Origin: Clostridia bacterium | GTDB lineage: Bacteria; Bacillota; DSM-521; Neomoorellales; SLTJ01 | Reading direction: 5' to 3' | Assembly (NCBI GenBank): GCA_004347685.1 | Contig: SLTJ01000032.1 | Span: 1-64,000, forward strand | Length of the DNA: 64,000 bases | Shown here: positions 1,804-16,107 of the stretch, piece after piece | Position numbering within the stretch: position 1 is the stretch's first letter | Layout of the letters: the number at the start of each line of letters is the position of its first letter | The notes under the pieces: generated by a model | The model's input: the letters and a program-made list of their open reading frames with translations, nothing else | Told to the model about the DNA's origin: nothing | The model's database searches: none | Translations under genes and position numbers: made by a program

Positions 1804-1982
1804 CGGGTGAGGGTTTCTGTTTTGCCGGCACCGGCGGCCGCCACTACCCGCACGTAAGGCTCCGGGGCGCCGGCAGCTTCCTGTTGCTCTGGCGACAACC
1901 TGTCGAGAACGGCCTGGAGCGTTTGGTCAACCTGTTTTGGCCGGGGAAATTGCGGCCTCCTGGCAGAACCCCTCGCCATCAC
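1804..1982 (-). pseudogene. UvrD/REP-type helicase N-terminal fragment
   Basis: The minus-strand frame reads LDRLSPEQQEAAGAPEPYVR then VVAAAGAGKTETLTRR, the Q-motif and Walker A (AGAGKT) that open superfamily 1A UvrD-like helicases. The similarity ends at about 1804, where the sequence becomes the antisense of the radC fragment. Only some 60 of the usual 600-700 residues remain. It overlaps the 3' end of the radical SAM gene by about 55 nt. It is a remnant, not a functional gene. Confidence 0.7.
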
Positions 1983-3537
1983 CCGTCACTCCCTCCCTAT
2001 AGGTTTTGTCGGTGTCCCCGGCTCGCTCTGTATACTGATTGATCACCGCCCCAAATCCGTCGGTGAGCAACTCCCGGAACGCCCGGCTCACCCGGGTGGG
2101 CCCGAAGAGCTGGAAGGACCGGCTGCGGTAATGGGCGTTCAGGGTGAACATGAGGCGCTGCAAATCAATGTAGTCGGCCAGGGAGCCCTCGTTTAGTTCC
2201 AGAAAAGGGTAGAGTTTGCCGTTGAGCATATGCAGGTCTTTATCCCATCCCCGCTCCTTGATATAGGGGAGGTAAGCATCGTATATCCGGGTACCGGGCA
2301 CCGGGGCAAAGAGCATGGGGATGATGGAGCCCACGGTCTCGGAAGCGAAAATGATGGTTTGCACTACTTCTTCGATTCTTTCCTCCGGGAGGCCGTAGAG
2401 CACAAAGGCGTTGACCTCTAGGTTGCGCAGCCTGTAGCCGGCCGCCTCGGCCATCTTCGCCGCTTGGACGAAATTCTCCAGCCTTACGTGTTTACGCCCC
2501 AGCCGGGTGAGTTTCTCCTGGGAAAAGCTCTCCAACGGCAGGTAGATCTTCTCCAAATGGGCGGCCTTCATCAGGTCGAAAAGGTACTGGGAACGGCTGA
2601 GGCTGGTTACGTCCAGGCCTTCCGGCGCGTACAGGCGAAAGGGCGCCCTCTTCTCCACGAGGAGTTCCAGGATGCGCTGAAAGCCATTTTCATAGTCGTG
2701 AAGCAGGGCATCGGCATAGAAGGCGAACTCCCGGATGCCAAAGGTCTCATACTGGTAATACATTTCAGCCACCACGTCCGCGGGCGGGCGCCGGCGCACC
2801 CGGCGGCCGCTATTGAGCAGCCTTTGGGCGCAGTAACTGCAGTCGTAGATGCAGCCCCGGTTCGGGGTAATGATGGCGTAAGCGGGTGGCTTCTCGTACA
2901 GGGAAAGGTCCGGCCACAGGTCGCTGGCTCCCTCTACCTCCCCACTTACCACCACGTCAGCCCCGGTCATGGCCGCAGCGTGCCCGGGCACCAGGGTAGG
3001 ATAAACCCCGCCCAGGATGACGGTAGTCCGGGAGCCAAAACGGTGCTTGAGCCTAGCCACCAGGTCGCGCACCGCCTCCCACCAGTAGGTCATGACGGCC
3101 GAAATCCACACCTCGTCGGGTGGGTTGTGGGGCGTAAACCCCTGGGCATCCAGCCATTCTTCCATTTGGCGCCACGTCTTGCCGAAGTGATGCTTATAGA
3201 GCCGCAGTTCGTCGGTGCCCTTGGCGATTACCAGCGGCCTGATGGGCGAGGCTGGTTCTTTGCCCGGCTCGCTATATTCCTCGTCAGGGTTGATGCGGTG
3301 CCGGGGCACCCGGCGGGCCGCGTCTGTCTCCAGGAAGTCAAAGAGTTCCACCCGCCGGTAACCGGACTTTTTCAGCCAGGCGCCGATGCGCAAGAGGCCG
3401 GCCGACTGCGCCCATTCCGACCAGTACTGGGTATCGTACACCGGGGGGTTGATCAGGACGGCCGTTTTCTCCTCCGGCCGCCCCGGCAAAAAATCTAATT
3501 TAAGGTCTCTAATTACCACCGCGCTCATTTGGGCCAC
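1927..3537 (-). CDS. B12-binding-domain radical SAM protein
   Basis: A 536-residue protein. Residues about 25-220 have the layout of a cobalamin-binding-type Rossmann domain (VLINPP, ILGGVYPTLVP, DVVVSGEVEG). The radical SAM core follows, with CIYDCSYC giving the CX3CX2C cluster at C229, C233 and C236. Such enzymes use a 4Fe-4S cluster and S-adenosylmethionine for methylation or rearrangement; the substrate is not apparent. A canonical B12 DxHxxG motif is not evident, so cobalamin binding is inferred from the family only. The start is GTG 3537 or ATG 3528; neither has a strong ribosome site. It stands alone between the helicase stub and the nuclease cassette. Confidence 0.75.
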   Translation of the reverse strand: MAQMSAVVIRDLKLDFLPGRPEEKTAVLINPPVYDTQYWSEWAQSAGLLRIGAWLKKSGYRRVELFDFLETDAARRVPRHRINPDEEYSEPGKEPASPIRPLVIAKGTDELRLYKHHFGKTWRQMEEWLDAQGFTPHNPPDEVWISAVMTYWWEAVRDLVARLKHRFGSRTTVILGGVYPTLVPGHAAAMTGADVVVSGEVEGASDLWPDLSLYEKPPAYAIITPNRGCIYDCSYCAQRLLNSGRRVRRRPPADVVAEMYYQYETFGIREFAFYADALLHDYENGFQRILELLVEKRAPFRLYAPEGLDVTSLSRSQYLFDLMKAAHLEKIYLPLESFSQEKLTRLGRKHVRLENFVQAAKMAEAAGYRLRNLEVNAFVLYGLPEERIEEVVQTIIFASETVGSIIPMLFAPVPGTRIYDAYLPYIKERGWDKDLHMLNGKLYPFLELNEGSLADYIDLQRLMFTLNAHYRSRSFQLFGPTRVSRAFRELLTDGFGAVINQYTERAGDTDKTYREGVTGDGEGFCQEAAISPAKTG

Positions 3538-3579: not shown

Positions 3580-3609
3580 TTGACAGGTAGCCAGCTACCG
3601 TGGTATCAT
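3580..3609 (+). promoter_or_regulatory. sigma-A-type promoter with palindromic operator, no clear gene
   Basis: TTGACA (3580-3585), an 18-nt spacer, then TATCAT (3604-3609). The spacer begins with the perfect palindrome GGTAGCCAGCTACC (3586-3599), placed to act as an operator. A second inverted repeat, CCAGG-GTAA-CCTGG (3619-3632), follows at the expected transcript start. Downstream are only a 7-codon ORF behind GGAGGTGG (ATG 3639, stop 3660-3662), small hairpins and a T-rich end near 3690. The transcript would be short and convergent with the DUF3800 gene. Confidence 0.5.
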
Positions 3610-3689: not shown

Positions 3690-4578
3690 TCATTTTATTA
3701 AGAAGACCTTTCCGTACCCGCTAACCCTTCCGGTATAGGATTGCCGATTGTATTTGTTTTGTACAGCAGCCGCTATCTTTTCTCCAAACCTCCCTTTCCA
3801 GGCCCCAGGGGCAATCCGGCTATTTTCCATCAGGATCTGCTGCTTGAGCGGGTAGGCCAGGAGATCAGCCACCTGCAAACCGGCAATATTGGCGCTTTTG
3901 GGCTTGAGTTTGATTTCCTTGCTGGTCAAGGCCCTCTGGAAAAAACCCGCAGGTTTAAACTGGGTTCCAGAAGTGTAAAGATGGGCGTATGCTTCCCTTA
4001 ACTGCTGATCCTCCGTTTTTCCCCGGCTTTCTGCCAGAACATCCCCCTTTGCATTGTAAAAATTTAGAAACCCACAATACCGTTCCATCAGGGCCGCCAA
4101 ACAGTAGTGGTAGGGGTGATATGCAGCATCACCGTACCATTCCACGTGCGATTTCTTATCTATCACCACCATAATTAGGGCATACTCCTGCTCCTGAAGG
4201 AAGGTCAGTAGATCCTTATTAAATTGTGTCTCCCTTTTCGGGTCCCGCAACCGCCAGAAGGGACCTTCCTTATTTACCAGCTCCTTGCGGTGCAAGATTA
4301 CCGGCTCATCCGGGTTGTGAGGAAAGTGTTCTTGCTTTAAGGCTTCGAAGGCCGCATGAAAGGCGGTTCGATACACTTCGTGCTCGACAATACAGCCCAG
4401 TAATCCCAAATACCTTTTCTGGGCTTCTTTCAGGTCCGGATACTGTTCAACAGGTAATGGAAATTCTTGATTATTGATAACAAAACTTAGGCTGTGTTGC
4501 TCCTTGCGCCCGTATGTATGGTCTCCGCTCTCGTCAACATAGAGCCTGAATCGCTTACTTCCGCCTGTCGTCGGCCAT
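3690..4578 (-). CDS. DUF3800 domain protein, N-terminal frame disturbed
   Basis: The DUF3800 signature RFRLYVDESGDHTYGRKEQH is encoded on the minus strand from about 4556 and runs to the stop at 3690 (SANIAGLQVADLLAYPLKQQ near the end). DUF3800 proteins have an RNase H-like acidic DESG motif and often accompany defence or mobile genes. The domain frame has no ATG, GTG or TTG before the conserved motif. An ATG at 4578 behind AGGGGGG starts a reading (MADDRRK) in the neighbouring frame that stops after seven codons. A one-base indel near 4555-4565 would join them. As it stands only an internal TTG (4409) is available, which would lose the DESG motif. It follows the methylase gene by about 30 nt. 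Confidence 0.65.
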
Positions 4579-4609
4579 CCCCCCTGAGAGGCTAAGCAGA
4601 GTTCTCGCG

Positions 4610-7600
4610 TTAAGCCAAGTCGGCCAGAGAATCCTTGATTTCTTTGAGTTCGGCGTCGGTCAGGCCCCAGAGCCGGGCCGCCAGCTTATCTATCTCTTCC
4701 TCCACCGCAGCCAAGCCATCCACATCCCCGGACGCAGCCAGGGCATGGGCCTGTTGGGAAAAGGAGGCCAGGGCGAGATGGAGCGGATCTTCACTGTCAA
4801 AGGCTGGCACCCGCAGGTACTCAAGCAAGTGCATAGATCCGAAGCTCTTTCCCCCTTTTTGGGCGTAGGACTGCGCAGCAAAATTGAAGGGCGCGGAGTT
4901 GATCAATGCACACAGATAATGGGCTAGGCTGGCGTCTGTTGCCTCGACCAGGGTAACTGTTTCCTGAGGGATAACGGGCTTACCTTCTTGGGTACTGAGC
5001 ACCGCGCAGATGATCTCAGATGCAATTCTGCCCCACACCACCTTGTACGGGGCAAAGGTGTAGTCGCCCACAGCGAACATGGTATAGAACGGTGCGCCTT
5101 TCTTGATCATGTCGATTACTCCCCGAGAACGTCGCTGCCGCAGCACCTCCTCAAAGCGCTTCAGGTAGCTGTAGGTCTTGGGGTAGCGGTCGCTCATTTC
5201 GTCTTCGGGGATTGCTTTAAGTCTCTGGCCAGGTAGGTGGGTAACTAGTATAAAGGCCGAAGGCGCGGCCTGCCACTTACCTACGTCCCGGCCCCGTAAC
5301 AAGGGATATAAGAGGTCGGGCTCGACGGCCGCGGTGACTTCTTCCACTTCGCGCCTTGTGCCCTCGGTGATGTTACTCACCACTACCAGGCCGTCCGGCC
5401 GCTGGCCCACGATTTCCACCCAGTACACCCCGTTGGCTCCGCCGGAATACGCGCCGGCATGGGCTTCATAATCCGAGGGCCCCAGGATCTTTTTCACCGC
5501 CCTTACTGCTTTCTCCCTCCCGGTGAGCCAGGCCGCGGTAGGGTCGTTGGTGTCCACCGGCTCGGCCACGAACCGGCTTACCCGCACCCGGGCCAGCACT
5601 TCCTCCAGCTTCAGATCGGGCCGGATGCCATCGCCCCGGCCGGCTTTGCGCCAGTAATTGTATTGTACGGGGTAGCGGTGGGGCAGGCCTTTCTCCAGGA
5701 TGACGATGCTGGTGCGGTTGCTGGCCCCCTCGAAGGGCTGCAACTCGGAGAGGTCGTCCACGAACTGCACCCGCACCGGCACCCCACCCGGCAGCATGAA
5801 GCGGCGGAACCCCTGGCCGGCCCCGGAGGTCTTGAACACCGACTGGGTGATGACGAAGCCAAGTTTGCCCCGGGGCTTGAGGTAGCGGTCCAGGGCCACG
5901 TAGGTCATAAGGATTGAGATGTCGTCTTTGCTCTTGCCTAAGATAGCCTCGAATCCCTTATGAGGGAAAAGCTCATACTTGACCCAAAGGTAGGCTGTCT
6001 GTTGCCGGTAGTTTTCCGGCAGGCTCTCCCAGTTCACCCAGGGAGGATTGCCGGCCACGTAGTCGAAGTAATTTTGCCGGAAGAGGGGCTGGAAGGCGTT
6101 CTTGATAATGCCGGCCCAAACGCCGTTGAGGCCGCGGGTTTCCAGCTCCAGGAGTTGCCGGTAGAGTCCCTCGACCACGGTAATGTCCCCCTCGTCCGGC
6201 CCTTCCAGCAGGGGAAAGGCGGCGGTGAGGCGGCGGCGGAATTGCTCGGCCGTTAATTTGTCCTGCACACATTCTTCCAGCAGGCCGGTGAGCCGGTCAA
6301 CGTAACTGGCGTCCACCAGGGACTTGGGCAGGGTAAAGGTGCCTACCGGCTCCGCAGCCCTAAAAGAGACGGTGTGCTTCTGCATAGCTCCCCACTCTGG
6401 GTTCTGCTCCTCACTGGGGGTGAGGATGGAGTCGGCCAGGTAAACCGGGATATCTACATCGCCCTTCCGGTGGGGGAGCAGGTCGCCCACGGCCAGGAGG
6501 TAGTTGGTGCGGGCGGAAATTACGGCCAGGGGGTTGAGATCAAAGCCCACCACGTTGGCCAAAATCTTTTCTAGCACCTGGCTCTCGGGAATCATTTTCT
6601 CCAGGGCGTATTCCCGCATCTTCTTGATTGCCAGCACCAGGAAGGTGCCGGAACCGCAGGCCGGGTCGAGGAGCCTTTTATCGAGGTTTCCCTGGAAGGA
6701 CCCGGCCTCCAACTGGTTTAAGAGCCGCTCGGCCAGCCAGTCCGGGGTGTAGTATTCGCCCAGGTTGTGGCGCAGCCGGGCCGGCACGAGCTGCTGGTAA
6801 AGTTTTTTCAAAAGGTCCCGGGTTTCTTCGGGATCCACGTCCAGGGTGATTAGGGAGTAGTCGGCCAGGGCGGCGATGATCCGGCTCAAAACAGCAGCCA
6901 GGGTATCGTCCCATACCTCCAGGAACCAGTTGAAGAAGTCCCCCTCGAGGAAGTTCTTCAGGCCGAACTCCCGAAAGATGCCGCCTTTCACGAGGTTCTT
7001 CCGCAGGTACTTGAGGAGTTCGTCCGGCGGCAGGCTGGCCACCTGAGCCAGCCCCGTGCCCAGCCGGGGAAAAGCGTAGTAGGCCACTACCTGCATGGCC
7101 AAAATCTTGATAAAGGTGGCGTAGTAGGTGTGCAGGGCAAAGAAAAAGGGCAGGGCCTCAACAGGGCCGGTGCGGATGCCGAAGCGGCGGGCCAGGGCCG
7201 CCATCTCCAGCTTGGATGAGTTCTCGGCGTAGCCGCAGACCTCGCTGAACTGCCGCGCCCACTGGTCAAAGAGCACCCGCACCCGGGGAGAGGTAGTGCG
7301 GGCGATGGTTTCGTAAAAGGTGCCCACGGCCAGCCTGGCAAGCTGGGTATTTTCTCCGAAGTCGCGGATCAGGTTCTCCGGGGTCACCGCCTTTTCCGTG
7401 CTTAAAGAAGTGAGGTAGCGCAGGAAGCGCTCGGTGGAGGCCGGGCTCACCGGCAGGGGGTCGTCCTCGATCCAACGGCCCTCTTTATAGCGGGCGAAGA
7501 TAAAATAGGTGCCGTCCAGCACCACCCCGGCCAGGCGCTCCGGCCGGTGCCGTTCCAGCCGGTGGAGGTCGTCAATATACTGCTTGACTTGGTCCAAGGC

Positions 7601-7885
7601 GTGGCGGTTGGCTCGGCTTTTGTTGCTCTTATTGAGGGAGCCGGGCCTTTCGTACTCCACCACCAGCCGGTTGTAGACCGTATCGGCCCGGCCGTTTAAG
7701 AGGGTGCGCTCGTGCTCGGTATGGAAGTCCAGCCCCAGCGAGGCGCCAAATCCTTCAATGGCCGGGGCTATCCTCTGCCGGAACTGCTCCTCGTTCCCAC
7801 CGGCCCCGGCCTTCTTGAGCAATGCGGCTAGCCTCGGGGCTTCTTCCTTGATGGCGCGCTCGGCTTCCAGGATATCTAAAGGCAA
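4610..7885 (-). CDS. fused nuclease-domain / N6-adenine DNA methyltransferase (type IIG-like)
   Basis: A 1091-residue protein. Residues 1-110 look like a PD-(D/E)xK-type domain (GRAD at 65-68, VVEYERPG at 75-82, QVKQYIDD). A helical region follows (about 180-370), then an N6-adenine methylase: GEYYTP, motif I DPACGSGTF (407-415), VVGFDLNP, and motif IV NPPW (613-616). The C-terminal 400 residues would be target recognition plus linker. It should bind SAM and methylate adenine; cleavage activity is inferred. In the nuclease motif the expected Lys is Glu (E77-Y-E79). Start TTG 7885 is supported by GGGAGGGAG. It lies 24 nt after the HerA-like gene, so it belongs to that operon. Alternatives are a BREX/PglX-like methylase or an Eco57I-family enzyme. 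Confidence 0.8.
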   Translation of the reverse strand: MPLDILEAERAIKEEAPRLAALLKKAGAGGNEEQFRQRIAPAIEGFGASLGLDFHTEHERTLLNGRADTVYNRLVVEYERPGSLNKSNKSRANRHALDQVKQYIDDLHRLERHRPERLAGVVLDGTYFIFARYKEGRWIEDDPLPVSPASTERFLRYLTSLSTEKAVTPENLIRDFGENTQLARLAVGTFYETIARTTSPRVRVLFDQWARQFSEVCGYAENSSKLEMAALARRFGIRTGPVEALPFFFALHTYYATFIKILAMQVVAYYAFPRLGTGLAQVASLPPDELLKYLRKNLVKGGIFREFGLKNFLEGDFFNWFLEVWDDTLAAVLSRIIAALADYSLITLDVDPEETRDLLKKLYQQLVPARLRHNLGEYYTPDWLAERLLNQLEAGSFQGNLDKRLLDPACGSGTFLVLAIKKMREYALEKMIPESQVLEKILANVVGFDLNPLAVISARTNYLLAVGDLLPHRKGDVDIPVYLADSILTPSEEQNPEWGAMQKHTVSFRAAEPVGTFTLPKSLVDASYVDRLTGLLEECVQDKLTAEQFRRRLTAAFPLLEGPDEGDITVVEGLYRQLLELETRGLNGVWAGIIKNAFQPLFRQNYFDYVAGNPPWVNWESLPENYRQQTAYLWVKYELFPHKGFEAILGKSKDDISILMTYVALDRYLKPRGKLGFVITQSVFKTSGAGQGFRRFMLPGGVPVRVQFVDDLSELQPFEGASNRTSIVILEKGLPHRYPVQYNYWRKAGRGDGIRPDLKLEEVLARVRVSRFVAEPVDTNDPTAAWLTGREKAVRAVKKILGPSDYEAHAGAYSGGANGVYWVEIVGQRPDGLVVVSNITEGTRREVEEVTAAVEPDLLYPLLRGRDVGKWQAAPSAFILVTHLPGQRLKAIPEDEMSDRYPKTYSYLKRFEEVLRQRRSRGVIDMIKKGAPFYTMFAVGDYTFAPYKVVWGRIASEIICAVLSTQEGKPVIPQETVTLVEATDASLAHYLCALINSAPFNFAAQSYAQKGGKSFGSMHLLEYLRVPAFDSEDPLHLALASFSQQAHALAASGDVDGLAAVEEEIDKLAARLWGLTDAELKEIKDSLADLA

Positions 7886-7909
7886 CGGCTTCTCCCTCCC
7901 AGGGTGAAC

Positions 7910-9571
7910 TTAGCGCTGTTCCTGCCGGTAGGCCGGCTTGGGGAAGATGATCTTCACTGGCTGGCGGTAAACCGCGTGGCTGATCAGGAGTTCGCCCTTG
8001 CCCAGCCGGGTCATGCTCATCTTCAACTCGTCGTCCAGGAAACGGTAATCAGGTTGGGCCACTTCCGCCGCGCCGGTGCGGCCCAGGATCTTGGTGGCCG
8101 CGTTGCCGGTGACCCGGTTGTGCACCGCGCTCATGAACTGCTGGGCGGAGATCAAGATGACCCCCAGGGAGCGGCCCCGCTCGGCAATGTCGAGCACCTG
8201 CTCGGTGATGGGGGAGGTCCGGGCCCCGCCGGGAGCGTACTTGTTGAGCTCGTCCACGAAGAAGATTATCTTTTCCGGCACGGGCTCGCTACGGTCTTCC
8301 GGCTCCTCGGCCTTCAGTTCGTAAACGGTGCGCAATAGGTCGCCGAAGACCAGGGTCTGCTCGTCGTCGTAGAGCTTGGCGATGTCCACCACGTAGGTAT
8401 AGCCGCCCTTGATCTTGCGGACCTCGTCGGCCAGCACCTTCTGGTTTTTGGCCCGGGCGTCCATAAAGATGCCCGACTGCCGGGTTTTGACCAGGCGCCG
8501 CAGGTTGCGGCGGAACTTGCCCACGGAAGAGCGGTGGTGGTCGCCCCACCCCTTTGACTGGCCGTCCTTAAAAAGGGGCGGGCCGTTGAGGAGCTGGCTC
8601 CAGCTATGGACGTTCTTGAAGTCCCCCTCGTTATTGACGATCCCCTGCATGATGTCCCCGATAATGGCGTCCATTGTACCGGTGGGGTCGGAGACATTGG
8701 TGAACAGAAGGTCCAGCTTGTCAGCTGCGGCGTCCAGGTCGTAGGCGAACAAGTGATAGCCGTCCGGCTCGAGGAAGCTGTTGGGCCGGCCCGGATGCTC
8801 GCTGGAGGCCGGCAGCAAATAGACCACGTTCTTGAAGGGCCGGGGTTCAAGGCCCAGGTCCTCCCACTTTTCCATCTCCTCCACCGGCAGGGATGGGCCG
8901 GGTTTATCTATCTGCAACAGGTCGGCCTGCTTCACGTTCAGGATGATAACCGCTATCTTTTCCGGGTTGGCGGCCTTCTGAAGGATAGATTGAATAATGA
9001 ACATGGCGTAGGAAGTTTTGGTGGCCAGGCCGCTGATGCCGGAGATGTTGATGTGGGCCGACTCCGGCCCCAAGATGTACCGGCGGTCCAGGTAGGCCAC
9101 GGTGGAGGCGCCGTTGCTCATTTTGATCAGCCCGGCGGGGACCCGGTCGGCCGCCGGCATTTCGGTGATCCCCAGGGCTTCCTCGATCCCGGCCGCGTCG
9201 GCAAAGTGCACTAGGCGCTCGTTGGATACCGGCATGTAGATGTCCCGGTTGTTGCTGAGGACGTTGACCCGGCCCACGGTAGCCCCCTGGCGCAGGGTGT
9301 TGGGCTCCGCGGCTAGTTCCCCAAAGTTGTTGGAGATGAAGTTGGCTAGGTGACTGGCCGCGTCGGTCCGGTGCTCGAGGATGGTCACCAGGCCGTAGGT
9401 CTTGCTGGTCTCCCCGGCGGCCGGGCCTACCTGCTCCACCTGTACGATATCAAAGGGGTTGACGATCACCCCAGGTGCCAGCCAGAAGCTGAATTTATCC
9501 GAGGTGTTGGCCTCCCGCTCGGTGGCGGAAGTACGCCCCAGCGCGGAATTTCCAACTGTTTCGTCCGGCAT
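7910..9571 (-). CDS. HerA/FtsK-superfamily ATPase (DUF87-like)
   Basis: A 553-residue protein. Residues about 25-130 form a HerA-type N-terminal beta-barrel region (LAPGVIVNPFDIVQVEQV). The ATPase has an unusual P-loop GISGLATKTS (178-187), Walker B IIFFVDE (434-440) and a C-terminal ISAQQFMSAVHNRVTGNAAT segment typical of HerA. These proteins form hexameric DNA translocases that work with NurA nucleases in archaeal end resection and in some bacterial defence loci. Its ATG follows the NurA stop codon directly (TAG then ATG), implying coupled translation. A role in moving DNA for the paired nuclease and methylase is inference. Confidence 0.8.
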   Translation of the reverse strand: MPDETVGNSALGRTSATEREANTSDKFSFWLAPGVIVNPFDIVQVEQVGPAAGETSKTYGLVTILEHRTDAASHLANFISNNFGELAAEPNTLRQGATVGRVNVLSNNRDIYMPVSNERLVHFADAAGIEEALGITEMPAADRVPAGLIKMSNGASTVAYLDRRYILGPESAHINISGISGLATKTSYAMFIIQSILQKAANPEKIAVIILNVKQADLLQIDKPGPSLPVEEMEKWEDLGLEPRPFKNVVYLLPASSEHPGRPNSFLEPDGYHLFAYDLDAAADKLDLLFTNVSDPTGTMDAIIGDIMQGIVNNEGDFKNVHSWSQLLNGPPLFKDGQSKGWGDHHRSSVGKFRRNLRRLVKTRQSGIFMDARAKNQKVLADEVRKIKGGYTYVVDIAKLYDDEQTLVFGDLLRTVYELKAEEPEDRSEPVPEKIIFFVDELNKYAPGGARTSPITEQVLDIAERGRSLGVILISAQQFMSAVHNRVTGNAATKILGRTGAAEVAQPDYRFLDDELKMSMTRLGKGELLISHAVYRQPVKIIFPKPAYRQEQR

Positions 9572-10753
9572 CTATTCTCCCTCCCCTACGTTTTCTTGGC
9601 CTTCCGGGCCGGCCTGCGCGCGGGCTTGCGGCCAGCGGATGGCCCCCAGCAGTACGTCTTCGGAAAAGAAACGGTTCTTGATGGCCTGTTCGGCCATGAA
9701 GATCGGGTAGAGGTGGCAGTGCCAGCGCCGGTCCCGGCCATAGGGGGTGACGTTGCGCTCGGCCACCAGGGCCCGGGAGATCAGGTCGGCCAGCTCCGCC
9801 TCCACCGGCGTGCCGCCGGGCCGCGGCAGCTCCACCTTCACCACCCCCATCAGCGGGTAGTCCAGCTCCCGCTGCTCCCGCAGCCGCACGTACCAGAAGG
9901 CTACTTTGCCGTTGTAAGCACTGAAGGCGGCCGTCCGGTGGGCGTGAGGCAGGCCGGCCAGGATGGCGGTAACGTCCCGGCGGTCCTCACCCCGGCCCCG
10001 GGACCTGCGGCCTAAGTAAAACTGCGGGTCCTTACGGAACGACTTGGCCACCCCGACAAGATACCGGCTCTCCACAAACTCGTCCAGCTTTACCGCGCCG
10101 TCTAGGATCAGCCAGTTGTGCGCGTCGCGAGAGCCATCCGTGGCCCTGATCATTTCGATCTCCAGTTCGTGCATGCGGTGCCTGGCTTTGGCCCCGGCTT
10201 TGTTACGCAGGTCGCCTTCTTGATCTTCCCGGTTCAAGGCATGGGTTTTGCTGACATCGTGGAGCTCTACGAGCCCGTCTGACCGGTCAAAGTGTTCCAA
10301 CTGGTGCCAGACCGCGTCTGAAATTCCTTTCGCCCCTTTGGGGAGCAGAAGTAAGACCTTGTGCTTGCTGGCCAGCAACCGGAGGTTGCCATCGGGTCGG
10401 CGTTCGATCACGGCCGCGCCCACCTGGGCCAGCTCAATGGGGAAGGAACGGTTCCCTTCAATACCTGTGGCCAGGAAATAGGTGCGGATGCTGCCGTCAA
10501 TGAAGAACCGGTAGAAGGGCTGCTCGATGCGGGGCAGTGGAGGCGTGGGCCGGTAAAGGGAGGTCAGGCTGGGCGTTGGCGTCTCGGCAAAGGCCGTTAC
10601 TTCCCCCATCTCCCGGTTGATCAGGGTATCCTCCAGTTCCTCCGGATCGGGATGCAGGTAATCTTCCACGGCCTTGCCGGCCGCCGGGAGCACGTCTATA
10701 TTGTCGGCCAGCACTTCCAGTACCGGCGTTAATTCGGCCAGGGGATTAGGCAT
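9572..10753 (-). CDS. NurA-like nuclease
   Basis: A 393-residue protein with NurA-type landmarks: FFIDGS (D86-G87-S88) opening an RNase H-like fold, a second acidic strand LILDGA (D218), RYLVGVAKSF (about 230-239), and a C-terminal YPIFMAEQAIKNRFF region. NurA is a Mn2+-dependent 5'-3' exonuclease/endonuclease that acts with HerA. It is the first gene of a minus-strand operon with the HerA-like ATPase, nuclease-methylase and DUF3800. GGGGGT precedes ATG 10753. The 268 bp upstream hold no other gene; the operon promoter probably lies there, but no convincing -35/-10 pair is visible. Confidence 0.75.
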   Translation of the reverse strand: MPNPLAELTPVLEVLADNIDVLPAAGKAVEDYLHPDPEELEDTLINREMGEVTAFAETPTPSLTSLYRPTPPLPRIEQPFYRFFIDGSIRTYFLATGIEGNRSFPIELAQVGAAVIERRPDGNLRLLASKHKVLLLLPKGAKGISDAVWHQLEHFDRSDGLVELHDVSKTHALNREDQEGDLRNKAGAKARHRMHELEIEMIRATDGSRDAHNWLILDGAVKLDEFVESRYLVGVAKSFRKDPQFYLGRRSRGRGEDRRDVTAILAGLPHAHRTAAFSAYNGKVAFWYVRLREQRELDYPLMGVVKVELPRPGGTPVEAELADLISRALVAERNVTPYGRDRRWHCHLYPIFMAEQAIKNRFFSEDVLLGAIRWPQARAQAGPEGQENVGEGE

Positions 10754-12278: not shown

Positions 12279-13168
12279 ATGGCAAAACTCTACACCTTAA
12301 GCCCACTCCAGGCAGGCAAAATATCCGACCTGGCCCAGGACTTTCTGGCCGACCTGGGCCGCAGGGGCTACAGCAGCCACACAGTACGCGCATACCGGAG
12401 CGCCTTGGCCGGGCTGGCCGAAGCCCTGGAGGACAAGGACGCCGCCGAGATAACCGCCCAGGACCTGGCCGCGGCCCTGGACAAGGAGAACTGGGACACC
12501 GAAACAAGGGCCGCCCGCCAGGCTGCTGTAAGGAGCTTTTTTAAGTGGCTTTCGGACCAGGGCTGCCTGGCCCGCAACCCGGCTGCTGGGCTGGGCAGCG
12601 TCAAGCGGTGTGAGGGATTGCCCCGCCCCATCCCCCAGGGCGACCTGGACAAGGTGCTGCGGGCCGCAGACGACCTGCCCCTGGCCCTTAGGACTTTAGT
12701 CCGGCTGCTGGCCGATACCGGCCTGCGCGCCGGAGAAGCCCTGGCCCTGGACGCGGCTGACGTAACTTGGGACAAGGGCCAAGAGGCAGTAACCATAAGG
12801 CGCGGCAAAGGGGGCCGGGGTCGGGTGGTGCCCGTGACAGTGGACATGAAGTGCTACCCCCTATTGCGCCGCCTGTGCCGGGAGCAACAACAGGGGCCGC
12901 TGTTTGTAACGCAAGGGGCACGCGGGCGGATTATGACTGGGCATATTACTGGTGGCAGAAAACGTTACAAGCAGCCGGTATGGCTGACAAGGGATATACA
13001 ATTCACCAGCTCCGGCATTCTGCCATCACCCGCTGGGTGGCCGGTGGCATGAACCTAGTGGTCGTCCGGAGGGCGGCCGGGCACAGGAACATGCAGACCA
13101 CGGCCAGGTACGCTGAAGTAACCGGCGGGGACCTGCGAAGGGAGATGGAGAGGGTGACGCGGCCCTGA
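12279..13168 (+). pseudogene. tyrosine recombinase (XerC/D-like), frameshifted
   Basis: SD TTAAGGAGG precedes ATG 12279. The core-binding domain (LADLGRRGYSSHTVRAYRSA) and the first half of the catalytic domain are intact: Arg in TGLRAGEALAL and Lys in RRGKGGRGR. After LFVTQGARG (about 12912-12930) the frame goes wrong. The proper continuation (RADYDWAYYWWQKTL) with catalytic HQLRHSAI, GHRNMQ and ARYAEVT is in a second frame ending at 13168. The single slip separates the active-site residues, so the enzyme is probably dead. Confidence 0.75.
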
Positions 13169-13632
13169 ATCTGCTTATTATTTTGCCCTGTAACCGGCCT
13201 TGGCCAGGATACAGGTAAAAAACATTAGGGCGACAAGAAACTCCCCTTGCACCAAACGACAGAGGGCTGTTTTTTTTGCTAAAGCAAACGGGGTCCCGTT
13301 AAGGAAATTTTCCTGAACGGGCAGGGCTGGACAAGCTGTCCGGCCTTTTTCTTTGCTCCGGCAAAGCCCTGGCGCCGGGCCGAGCAGGCCGGCCCCGCGC
13401 GAGTCAGAGTCTTTTCCCGGCCCTTTTCGGTCGCGGCATTATACCGCTCTGGCGGCCTTAAAGGGTCAAGGGGTTCGGGCCGTGAACATATCCTCCCTCC
13501 GCTTCGCTCCGGTCCGGTATCCTTCCCGATCCCGGCTTCGCCGCCCCTTGACCCCCGGCCGCCGTGGCGGTGGCGCCGTAGGTGCCCGAAAGGGCGAAAA
13601 AATGGGTCGGCAGGCCAAGGGGGCAAAGCGCG
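13169..13632 (+). other. long leader of radC, no gene seen
   Basis: About 460 bp without a convincing ORF. It contains hairpin copy 5 (13295-13321) and a run of eight or more T near 13270. A segment at 13370-13460 resembles 1535-1630 upstream of the broken radC copy, which suggests a conserved leader or regulatory region carried with radC. Confidence 0.5.
13295..13321. repeat. 13-1-13 hairpin, copy 5
   Basis: Left arm CCCGTTAAGGAAA (13295-13307), centre T, right arm TTTCCTGAACGGG (13309-13321). There is one A/G mismatch at the seventh pair from the centre, as in copy 2. Confidence 0.8.
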
Positions 13633-14130
13633 ATGGCGCGGCAGTTGGCGCTGTTTGAGAAGGCGGGCAGCTATGCCCAGACAAAGGAGAAGGTTTACCG
13701 CGTGCAGGTGGTGAGGCTCCAGATGGTGCGGGAAGCCAGCCTGGCGACCTACGTCAGGACCATCGGCACACCGGCAGACGTGGCGGATTTAGTGAGGCCG
13801 CTGCTGGAGGGGGCGGACAGGGAGCACTTCTTGGTTCTATGCCTGGACACCAAGAACCGGGTAAGCGCCATACACACGGTGAGTGTGGGGACGCTCAACA
13901 GCAGCCCGGTCCACCCCAGGGAAGTCTTCAAGGCGGCCATCCTGGCTAACGCGGCCAGCGTCATCCTGGCCCACAACCACCCCAGCGGGGATCCGGAACC
14001 AAGCCGGGACGACCGGGAAGTCACGGCCCGCCTGGTGGAGTGCGGCAAGATCCTGGGCATCGGGTTGCTGGACCACGTGGTTTTAGGTGAAGGAAGGTTC
14101 TACAGCCTTAAAGAGGCGGGGCTTCTCTAG
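13633..14130 (+). CDS. radC: RadC-family JAB/MPN domain protein
   Basis: 165 residues from ATG 13633 (AAGGGGG upstream). The JAMM metalloprotease-like motif HNHPSGDPEPSRDD is complete, as is the preceding TVSVGTLNSSPVHPREVFKA block, so the catalytic zinc site is intact. It lacks the N-terminal HhH region of housekeeping RadC, which is typical for plasmid, phage and ICE-borne versions. The cellular role of RadC is unsettled. A second, broken copy lies at 1535-1803. Confidence 0.8.
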   Translation: MARQLALFEKAGSYAQTKEKVYRVQVVRLQMVREASLATYVRTIGTPADVADLVRPLLEGADREHFLVLCLDTKNRVSAIHTVSVGTLNSSPVHPREVFKAAILANAASVILAHNHPSGDPEPSRDDREVTARLVECGKILGIGLLDHVVLGEGRFYSLKEAGLL

Positions 14131-14439: not shown

Positions 14440-14631
14440 ATGGTAAACTGGGACGACCTGCCGCTGCTTCTCCGGGTTGAAGACGTAGCCAAACTGCTGC
14501 AAATAGGCCGCAATTCGGCCTATGACCTTTGTCACCGGCGGGGATTTCCGGTTGTGCGCGTAGGGCGCATATTCCGGGTGCCCAAGGATGGCCTGAAAAA
14601 ATGGCTGGAGCAGCAGACAGTCGTTGAATGA
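14440..14631 (+). CDS. excisionase-family helix-turn-helix protein
   Basis: 63 residues, LLRVEDVAKLLQIGRNSAYD then GRIFRVPKDGLKKWLEQQ: a MerR-like winged helix of the excisionase (Xis/AlpA) type. ATG 14440 has AAGGGGGTGA at good spacing; an upstream GTG (14431) is too close to it. It sits directly upstream of the integrase and probably sets the direction of recombination. A palindrome TGTGAA-TCAG-TTCACA (14395-14410) lies in its leader. Confidence 0.75.
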   Translation: MVNWDDLPLLLRVEDVAKLLQIGRNSAYDLCHRRGFPVVRVGRIFRVPKDGLKKWLEQQTVVE

Positions 14632-14651
14632 TGTGGTATTATATGTCACAA

Positions 14652-14670
14652 GGGGGGCCACAGGCCCCCC
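14652..14670 (+). repeat. GC hairpin between xis-like gene and integrase
   Basis: GGGGGGCC (14652-14659), loop ACA, GGCCCCCC (14663-14670), no T-run. It may attenuate or space translation between the two genes. Confidence 0.5.
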
Positions 14671-14699
14671 AAAGGGACAAAAGGAAAGGAGTGTGCGAA

Positions 14700-15890
14700 A
14701 TGGGTGGTAAGCGCGGGAACAACGAAGGCTCAGTCACCCAGCGCTCCGACGGCAGATGGCAGGGTGCCGTCACTACAGGCCGGGACCCGGCAACCGGCAA
14801 ACTCAAAAGGGTTTTCTTCTACGGCGCTACACGGGAGGAGGCTGCCAGGAAGGTGACTGCTGCCCTGGCCGAAGTGCAGCGTGGGACCTTTGTTGAACCG
14901 ACCAAACTCACTGTAGGCCAGTGGCTGGAGACCTGGCTGGTGGAGTATAAGAAGACCGAACTGCGGCCCACGACCTGGGATAGTTATGAGATAACGGCCC
15001 GTGTTCACATCAAGCCGGCCGTCGGCGAACTGAAGCTCAAGGACCTGCGGCCTGAGCATTTGCAGCGGCTGTATAATGAAAAAGCCAAAGCCGGCCTTTC
15101 ACCGAAAACAGTCACCTACATTCATACAGTCATTCACGGTGCATTGGGACAGGCCGTCAAGAATGGCCTAGTGATAAGAAACGTGGCCGAGGCCACCACC
15201 CTGCCCCGCAAGGTGAAGAAGGAAATTCGCCCTCTCACCCTGGAGGAGGTGAAACAGCTATTCGATGCCATTGAGCAGGACCGGCTATTCCCGGCTATTT
15301 ACTTGGAACTGGCCACCGGCCTGCGACGCGGCGAACTCCTTGGTCTGCGCTGGCAGGACGTGAACCTGAAGGCTGGGACCATTACCGTCAAGCAGGGACT
15401 TGTCCGGGTAAGGAACCACGAAGCCCAAGAGGGGGAGCGCAAGACTATGCTGGTGTTCCAGGAACTAAAGACGGCTACCGCCAGGAGGACTATTCCTATC
15501 CCGGAGGATGTCCTGGCCGAACTGAAACGGTGGAAGGCCCGGCAGAATGAGGAGAAACTGGCATTAGGCCAGGGATACCGGGATAATGGCCTGGTGTTTT
15601 GCGCTGAGGACGGCCAGCCGTTAGACCCCAGGAGCTTTACCCGACATTTCGACCAGATGCTGAAGTGTGCTGGCTTACCCCATATCCGTTTCCACGATGC
15701 CAGGCATACTTTCGCCACAATGATGCTGGAGCTTGGGGAGTCTCCCAAGGTGGTGCAGCAGATGCTGGGTCATAGTCAGATTGCCGTAACCCTGGATATT
15801 TACAGCCACGTATCCCTAGATCTGGAGAGGAAGGCGGCGGCCCGGCTGAATGAGGTGCTGAAAAAAGAAAAGGCCCCTTCCGCAAGGTAA
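14700..15890 (+). CDS. tyrosine-type site-specific integrase
   Basis: 396 residues from ATG 14700 (AAAGGAG upstream). It has an AP2-like arm-binding N-terminus (GSVTQRSDGRWQGAVTTGRD), a SAM-like core-binding domain (about 60-160), and a catalytic domain with Arg in TGLRRGELLGLRW, HDARHTFATMMLE, GHSQ and the Tyr in TLDIYSHV, all present. It resembles integrases of Tn916-type ICEs and phages. The gene ends about 140 bp from the 3' end of tRNA-Pro, which suggests integration at that tRNA. Confidence 0.9.
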   Translation: MGGKRGNNEGSVTQRSDGRWQGAVTTGRDPATGKLKRVFFYGATREEAARKVTAALAEVQRGTFVEPTKLTVGQWLETWLVEYKKTELRPTTWDSYEITARVHIKPAVGELKLKDLRPEHLQRLYNEKAKAGLSPKTVTYIHTVIHGALGQAVKNGLVIRNVAEATTLPRKVKKEIRPLTLEEVKQLFDAIEQDRLFPAIYLELATGLRRGELLGLRWQDVNLKAGTITVKQGLVRVRNHEAQEGERKTMLVFQELKTATARRTIPIPEDVLAELKRWKARQNEEKLALGQGYRDNGLVFCAEDGQPLDPRSFTRHFDQMLKCAGLPHIRFHDARHTFATMMLELGESPKVVQQMLGHSQIAVTLDIYSHVSLDLERKAAARLNEVLKKEKAPSAR

Positions 15891-16030: not shown

Positions 16031-16107
16031 TGGTCGGGGCGGGGGGATTCGAACCCCCGGCCTCTTGGTCCCAAACCAAGCGCGCTACCAAGCTGCGCCA
16101 CGCCCCG
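16031..16107 (-). tRNA. tRNA-Pro (anticodon TGG)
   Basis: The minus strand folds as a full cloverleaf: acceptor CGGGGCG/CGCCCCG, D-arm GCGC/GCGC, anticodon stem CTTGG/CCAAG with loop TTTGGGA (anticodon TGG), T-arm GGGGG-TTCGAAT-CCCCC, discriminator A and an encoded CCA. The 3' end points toward the integrase, the usual geometry of an attachment site in a tRNA gene. Confidence 0.95.

Follow-up and report, generated by a model that had tools for sequence, protein, structure and literature searches.

The 64,000-nucleotide stretch analysed here (the window; positions 1–64,000 of the forward strand of contig SLTJ01000032.1, assembly GCA_004347685.1, from a Clostridia bacterium) carries a minus-strand cassette that encodes a NurA-family nuclease, a HerA-type ATPase and a type IIG restriction enzyme, with a DUF3800 frame and a radical S-adenosylmethionine (SAM) gene downstream (Table 1). 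The best reading of these sequences is that the cassette is a bacterial cousin of the DNA-donation operon of Thermus, in the new arrangement NurA-HerA-IIG-radical SAM, and because of this kinship we do not regard it as a clearly new phage-defence system. With a probability of about 0.55, by analogy with the Thermus operon, we take it to be a TdtA-type DNA-processing module (cutting or nicking, processing and pumping) that resides on an integrative element at tRNA-Pro and probably serves DNA donation. Its constant part consists of three genes, for NurA, HerA and the type IIG enzyme, which are co-inherited across many phyla.

The core module and its Thermus counterpart

The operon to which the cassette is most readily compared belongs to ICETh1 of Thermus thermophilus HB27, a 14.9-kb element that occupies the 3' end of a tRNA-Ile gene and is bounded by 47-bp repeats (PMC5365140). 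This operon, which serves DNA secretion in transjugation, encodes a type IIG enzyme (1106 residues), a NurA-like protein (377 residues), the HerA-like TdtA and an N4/N6 methylase (410 residues). Loss of tdtA abolished detectable transjugants, and loss of nurA or of the type IIG gene reduced transfer by 3–5 logs, the paper giving different answers in its text and in its figure legend as to which of the two effects is larger (PMC5365140). According to a later paper, the type IIG enzyme and NurA are strictly required for transfer and the methylase has a minor effect; the same paper proposed that TdtA starts from the cuts made by the type IIG enzyme (PMC7767461). The window cassette shares with ICETh1 a type IIG enzyme of the TspDTI subfamily, a NurA-like nuclease directly adjacent to a TdtA-type HerA in the same operon, a location at a tRNA 3' end, an attachment (att) repeat of 47–48 bp and a tyrosine integrase. 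It differs in gene order (NurA-HerA-IIG as opposed to IIG-NurA-HerA), in the tRNA gene used (tRNA-Pro instead of tRNA-Ile), in the added radical SAM and DUF3800 genes and in its Bacillota-type host. A cluster of T. scotoductus DSM 8553 that has been named tdtA-like (PMC5365140) was recovered among the relatives of the cassette (locus L033), with full-length identities to the window proteins of 60.5% for HerA, 45% for NurA and 47% for the type IIG enzyme.

Although Pfam finds no domain in the window NurA by itself, PF09376 was detected in 8 of 36 of its relatives, and the family profile matches NurA of Deinococcus radiodurans (7f6d_H, E 7.2e-6). The AlphaFold model (predicted local distance difference test score, pLDDT, 87) has as its top match in the PDB the NurA subunit of the D. 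radiodurans HerA-NurA complex 7f6d (E 2.5e-11; 16% identity in the structural alignment), the second and only other significant match being TM1739 of Thermotoga maritima. Conserved acidic residues are D86, which lies in the FFIDGS motif, E198 and D218. The window HerA matches its D. radiodurans counterpart with an E value of 1.3e-40 and carries a Walker A motif, GISGLATKTS (178–187), and a Walker B motif, FFVDE (437–441), both invariant in its relatives. Plasmid-encoded relatives of this HerA reach 27–34% identity at best. A HerA 36% identical to that of the window is encoded by Marinitoga camini virus 1 (KP836355.1, 38543–40135). The genome also contains a second NurA/HerA copy (L018; contig C19, 2931–4133), 88–92% identical to the first and broken: there is a frame break in NurA, and HerA is reduced to its first 33 residues.

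The third member of the module is hit by the type IIG model of PADLOC over nearly the full length of the model (1213 bits). The marks of the TspDTI subfamily, D-EXE, (D/P)PACGSG and NPPW (PMC3751577), are complete in the enzyme as the signature of TspDTI, TthHB27I and TsoI: D68...E77-Y-E79, DPACGSG at 407–413 and NPPW at 613–616. It resembles the TspDTI, Tth111II-TthHB27I and TsoI family in length (1091 against ~1105 residues), in the three motifs and in domain order, and differs in sequence, with the above 47% identity to the T. scotoductus homologue. Another genome of the same family encodes a type IIG relative (G002, contig C6, 29807–32329), 61% identical in the C-terminal part, that lacks the N-terminal nuclease region and is found without HerA.

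The initial annotation of this DNA, made from the sequence alone, had named a NurA-like nuclease with FFIDGS, a HerA/FtsK-type ATPase, a 1091-residue N6-adenine methylase with DPACGSGTF and an N-terminal nuclease domain, and a DUF3800 protein as the four members of one operon. All of these identities stand: the profile, domain and fold matches bear out NurA, the D. radiodurans match and Walker motifs bear out HerA, and the methylase proved to be a type IIG enzyme by model and motifs. The open reading frames of the first three genes, and the gaps of 0 nt between NurA and HerA and 24 nt between HerA and the type IIG gene, were also correct as given. What does not hold is the membership of the unit, since the radical SAM gene, which starts 152 nt downstream of the DUF3800 frame, had been overlooked and DUF3800 is not constant. 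The gap of about 30 nt proposed before DUF3800 presumes a start at the ATG at 4578, which belongs to a different frame from DUF3800. Its failure to recognise the exact set among described systems does not stand either, as the combination of type IIG, NurA and HerA is that of the ICETh1 operon (PMC5365140, PMC7767461).

Conservation of the module and its partner genes

A HerA-alignment scan of 84,980 species genomes, together with searches of related genomes, yielded 85 loci, or 81 after removal of duplicates and a fragment. NurA adjoins HerA in 78 of the 81, and a type IIG gene lies near the pair in 55. For the 44 loci that have all three genes, distance matrices correlate at 0.90 (IIG and NurA), 0.88 (IIG and HerA) and 0.88 (NurA and HerA); the highest correlation in 2000 permutations was 0.19, so that the observed values were never reached. 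The initial annotation had made its proposal depend on the four genes being conserved together elsewhere; for the three-gene core such conservation is strong. The cassette type of HerA is rare: 398 genomes from the phylum were searched, and 11 have it. In the same 398 genomes, all seven full-length type IIG homologues of at least 48% identity, and a partial one in genome G306, adjoin this HerA; more distant homologues are not beside HerA, and several of them have no N-terminal nuclease part.

Three arrangements can be distinguished. In arrangement A, which includes the Thermus scotoductus and Moorella loci, the order is IIG-NurA-HerA, and an N4/N6 methylase gene may or may not be present. In arrangement B, that of the window and of loci L014, L019, L021, L026, L027, L050 and L084, the order is NurA-HerA-IIG and a radical SAM gene comes next. 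This branch forms one clade in the type IIG tree (support 1.0) and in the HerA tree (99/98), the latter including L022, whose contig ends. Arrangement C consists of NurA-HerA-GHKL ATPase-radical SAM and has no type IIG gene; its loci (L017, L088–L098) form one clade in the HerA tree and come from Clostridia, Spirochaetes, Beggiatoa-like bacteria and others. The literature search found no description of this last arrangement. The N4/N6 methylase (PF01555) is present in 27 of the 81 loci, all of them in other branches than that of the window.

The radical SAM gene that accompanies the cassette offers a new and specific lead. It is present in all nine loci of branch B that have enough downstream sequence, one of which (L020) carries a gene of the arrangement C kind; the contigs of L023, L024 and L025 stop too early downstream, and the genomes of these three show no such gene. 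Among the 398 genomes of the phylum, the family was found at E 1e-40 only in the two branch B genomes, and matches of at least 40% identity in 50 HerA-bearing genomes were restricted to those of branch B. All 12 loci of the GHKL ATPase branch likewise have a radical SAM gene. The predicted structure (pLDDT 75) resembles AprD4, CysS, TokK and TsrM, enzymes that act on small molecules, and the role of the protein is perhaps methylation or some other modification. A more speculative idea, to which we attach little weight, is that NurA-HerA machines repeatedly recruited B12-type radical SAM enzymes as partners; these might then set or recognise a carbon modification, carried by DNA or by a partner, that determines which DNA is pumped or cut. 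A literature search found no paper that joins NurA, HerA, radical SAM and restriction.

The DUF3800 gene is a rare, optional and decaying accessory that is probably broken in the window. Upstream of its FRLYVDESG motif the frame contains no in-frame ATG, GTG or TTG, so the gene is likely damaged, with a sequencing error as a possible cause; its close relative in L014 has an in-frame TTG start. In L019 (9275–9520) a decayed DUF3800 sequence (MKKRYRLYVDESGDHSYG...) with an internal deletion separates the type IIG gene from the radical SAM gene. Long frames of this DUF3800 type are thus found in two of the 81 loci (the window and L014); apart from the decayed copy in L019, the type is absent from the other 78, two of which (L039 and L049) have distant DUF3800 proteins. 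The four genes that the initial annotation had united are therefore complete elsewhere only in L014, and we reject their filing as a four-gene defence system because DUF3800 is not conserved. According to PMC10910872, DUF3800 has an RNase H fold. In L084, two other genes (12513–13980), one with a SocA/Panacea domain, take the place of DUF3800 after the type IIG gene and before the radical SAM gene.

Donation, defence and other explanations

If the cassette works as its Thermus cousin does, the type IIG enzyme would methylate its own sites and nick or cut nearby where these are not fully methylated. A NurA-HerA complex would take the broken end, NurA trimming it and the HerA hexamer pumping double-stranded DNA, and, as in ICETh1, both the element and pieces of the chromosome would be exported into a competent cell nearby. 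The present analysis established homology, co-inheritance, catalytic motifs and element context, the order of steps is borrowed from ICETh1, and the function in this host is what we infer from them. Several observations weigh against donation. Functional data for the module are confined to Thermus, and the link to ICETh1 runs via the T. scotoductus cluster and published descriptions of HB27. The window's branch has another gene order and no N4/N6 methylase. The second end of the element is on another contig, so that its extent is inferred. In favour of donation, the host genome has a gene for ComEC, but this is weak evidence because most bacteria have ComEC, and it is also found in 10 of 14 control genomes.

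A restriction-type phage defence, in which host DNA carries marks set by the type IIG enzyme, DNA that lacks them is cut by it and HerA-NurA degrades the invader from the cut end, appears possible but less probable, and we favour donation over it. Much the same had been suggested in the initial annotation, with the methylase protecting host DNA; the suggestion retains some force from the membership of the enzyme in a real restriction-modification family and from the existence of HerA-nuclease pairs, and is less supported than donation. Such pairs, Sir2-HerA and HerA-DUF4297, are cited as anti-phage in PMC12977600, and DndH unites type IIG-like domains with a HerA ATPase (PMC10853773). These systems and DndFGH resemble the cassette in coupling a HerA-type ATPase to a nuclease, but the nuclease in each is Sir2, DUF4297 or a Dnd protein, none of which the cassette encodes. 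The patchy distribution on mobile elements also suits defence, as do genes for OLD/AriA-like AAA ATPases located between the type IIG gene and NurA or just before NurA in L052 (3539–4711), L053 (5795–7765), L063 (6255–8836) and L065 (6871–8818), in three cases paired with a small partner gene; they emerged when 84 neighbouring genes were scanned with PADLOC and Pfam, with no matched control set. However, the one module of this type studied genetically, that of ICETh1, serves DNA donation (PMC5365140), and our literature search found no paper describing the NurA-HerA-type IIG set as defence, nor any joining NurA, HerA, DUF3800 and a methyltransferase; the MORC restriction paper mentions neither HerA nor NurA. 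The scan with defence-system profiles that the initial annotation had called for (PADLOC) matched no named system: the generic type IIG restriction-modification model alone fits, HerA is hit only by weak HerA-like models, and NurA and DUF3800 match nothing. MADS and BREX were considered, as their N6-adenine methylases MAD2 and PglX are weakly similar to that of the cassette and MAD8 to its HerA (38 bits), and were rejected with scores far under the curated cut-offs (40 of 720 bits for MAD2, 39 of 400 for PglX).

It is doubtful that the cassette is selfish or decaying restriction-modification cargo, kept by post-segregational killing, in which NurA-HerA shares no common purpose with the enzyme. 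The DUF3800 damage in the window and L019 and the broken extra NurA/HerA copy that this genome carries would fit such an account, but the three genes are tightly co-inherited and their catalytic residues are intact. Least probable is resection or repair of DNA ends like that carried out by the archaeal and Deinococcus HerA-NurA complexes: the window pair has the same two folds as the D. radiodurans proteins (7f6d), encoded likewise by adjacent genes, but it is accessory, mobile and tied to a restriction enzyme, its frequent companion. A housekeeping role in repair is rejected by the distribution, which is rare and patchy in the phylum. In Thermus the cassette type occurs in 4 of 27 genomes, interrupted by a stop in one, and the whole genus has a separate, distant HerA, which matches the cassette HerA of T. 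scotoductus only in pieces (~32–46%). Should the donation reading be true, many phyla would possess a machine for which genetic evidence comes from one Thermus strain, and the choice between defence and donation becomes testable with knock-outs.

The tRNA-Pro element and neighbouring features

The initial annotation had placed the cassette in a tRNA-associated island with mobile genes, which is confirmed by a recombinase, the probable integrase, beside tRNA-Pro and by a 48-bp repeat. A distance of 140 bp separates the recombinase from the tRNA 3' end, and the operon unit is 4–14 kb away from the recombinase. An exact copy of the 48-bp 3' part of tRNA-Pro is present on another contig of the same assembly (C20, 2411–2458), followed by tRNA-Thr and tRNA-Gln, and the repeat looks like an att duplication. 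The window begins at the end of contig C2, and an element length of ~18.5 kb would follow if C2 and C20 are directly joined. Two genomes of the same family were compared for an empty site, and the flanking genes are not syntenic there. An Rfam scan returned nothing besides tRNA.

Table 1. Features of the cassette and its element in the window
Feature	Position	Strand	Remarks
NurA-family nuclease	9572–10753	minus	393 residues; RNase H-like fold; first gene of operon; FFIDGS
HerA/FtsK-type pumping ATPase, TdtA kind	7910–9571	minus	553 residues; Walker A/B motifs
Type IIG/IIC restriction endonuclease-methyltransferase, bifunctional, TspDTI/TthHB27I subfamily	4610–7885	minus	1091 residues; C-terminal target-recognition region
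DUF3800 protein frame	3690–4550	minus	FRLYVDESG motif at its start; likely damaged accessory gene
Radical SAM protein, B12-binding-like N-terminal domain	1927–3537	minus	CIYDCSYC at 229; recurs after type IIG gene in window's branch
Tyrosine recombinase, probable integrase of element	14628–15890	plus	PF00589 and PF14659
tRNA-Pro (TGG), probable attachment site	16031–16107	minus	3' 48 bp at 16031–16078

A second, XerC-like recombinase gene (12279–13168) consists of two overlapping frames and is probably broken. The RadC gene (13582–14130) has a degraded partial copy at ~1584–1801, which matches 13415–13955. Between the DUF3800 and radical SAM genes, at 3580–3609 on the plus strand, there is a promoter-like site, TTGACA-18-TATCAT (11/12), that contains the palindrome GGTAGCCAGCTACC and points against both genes.

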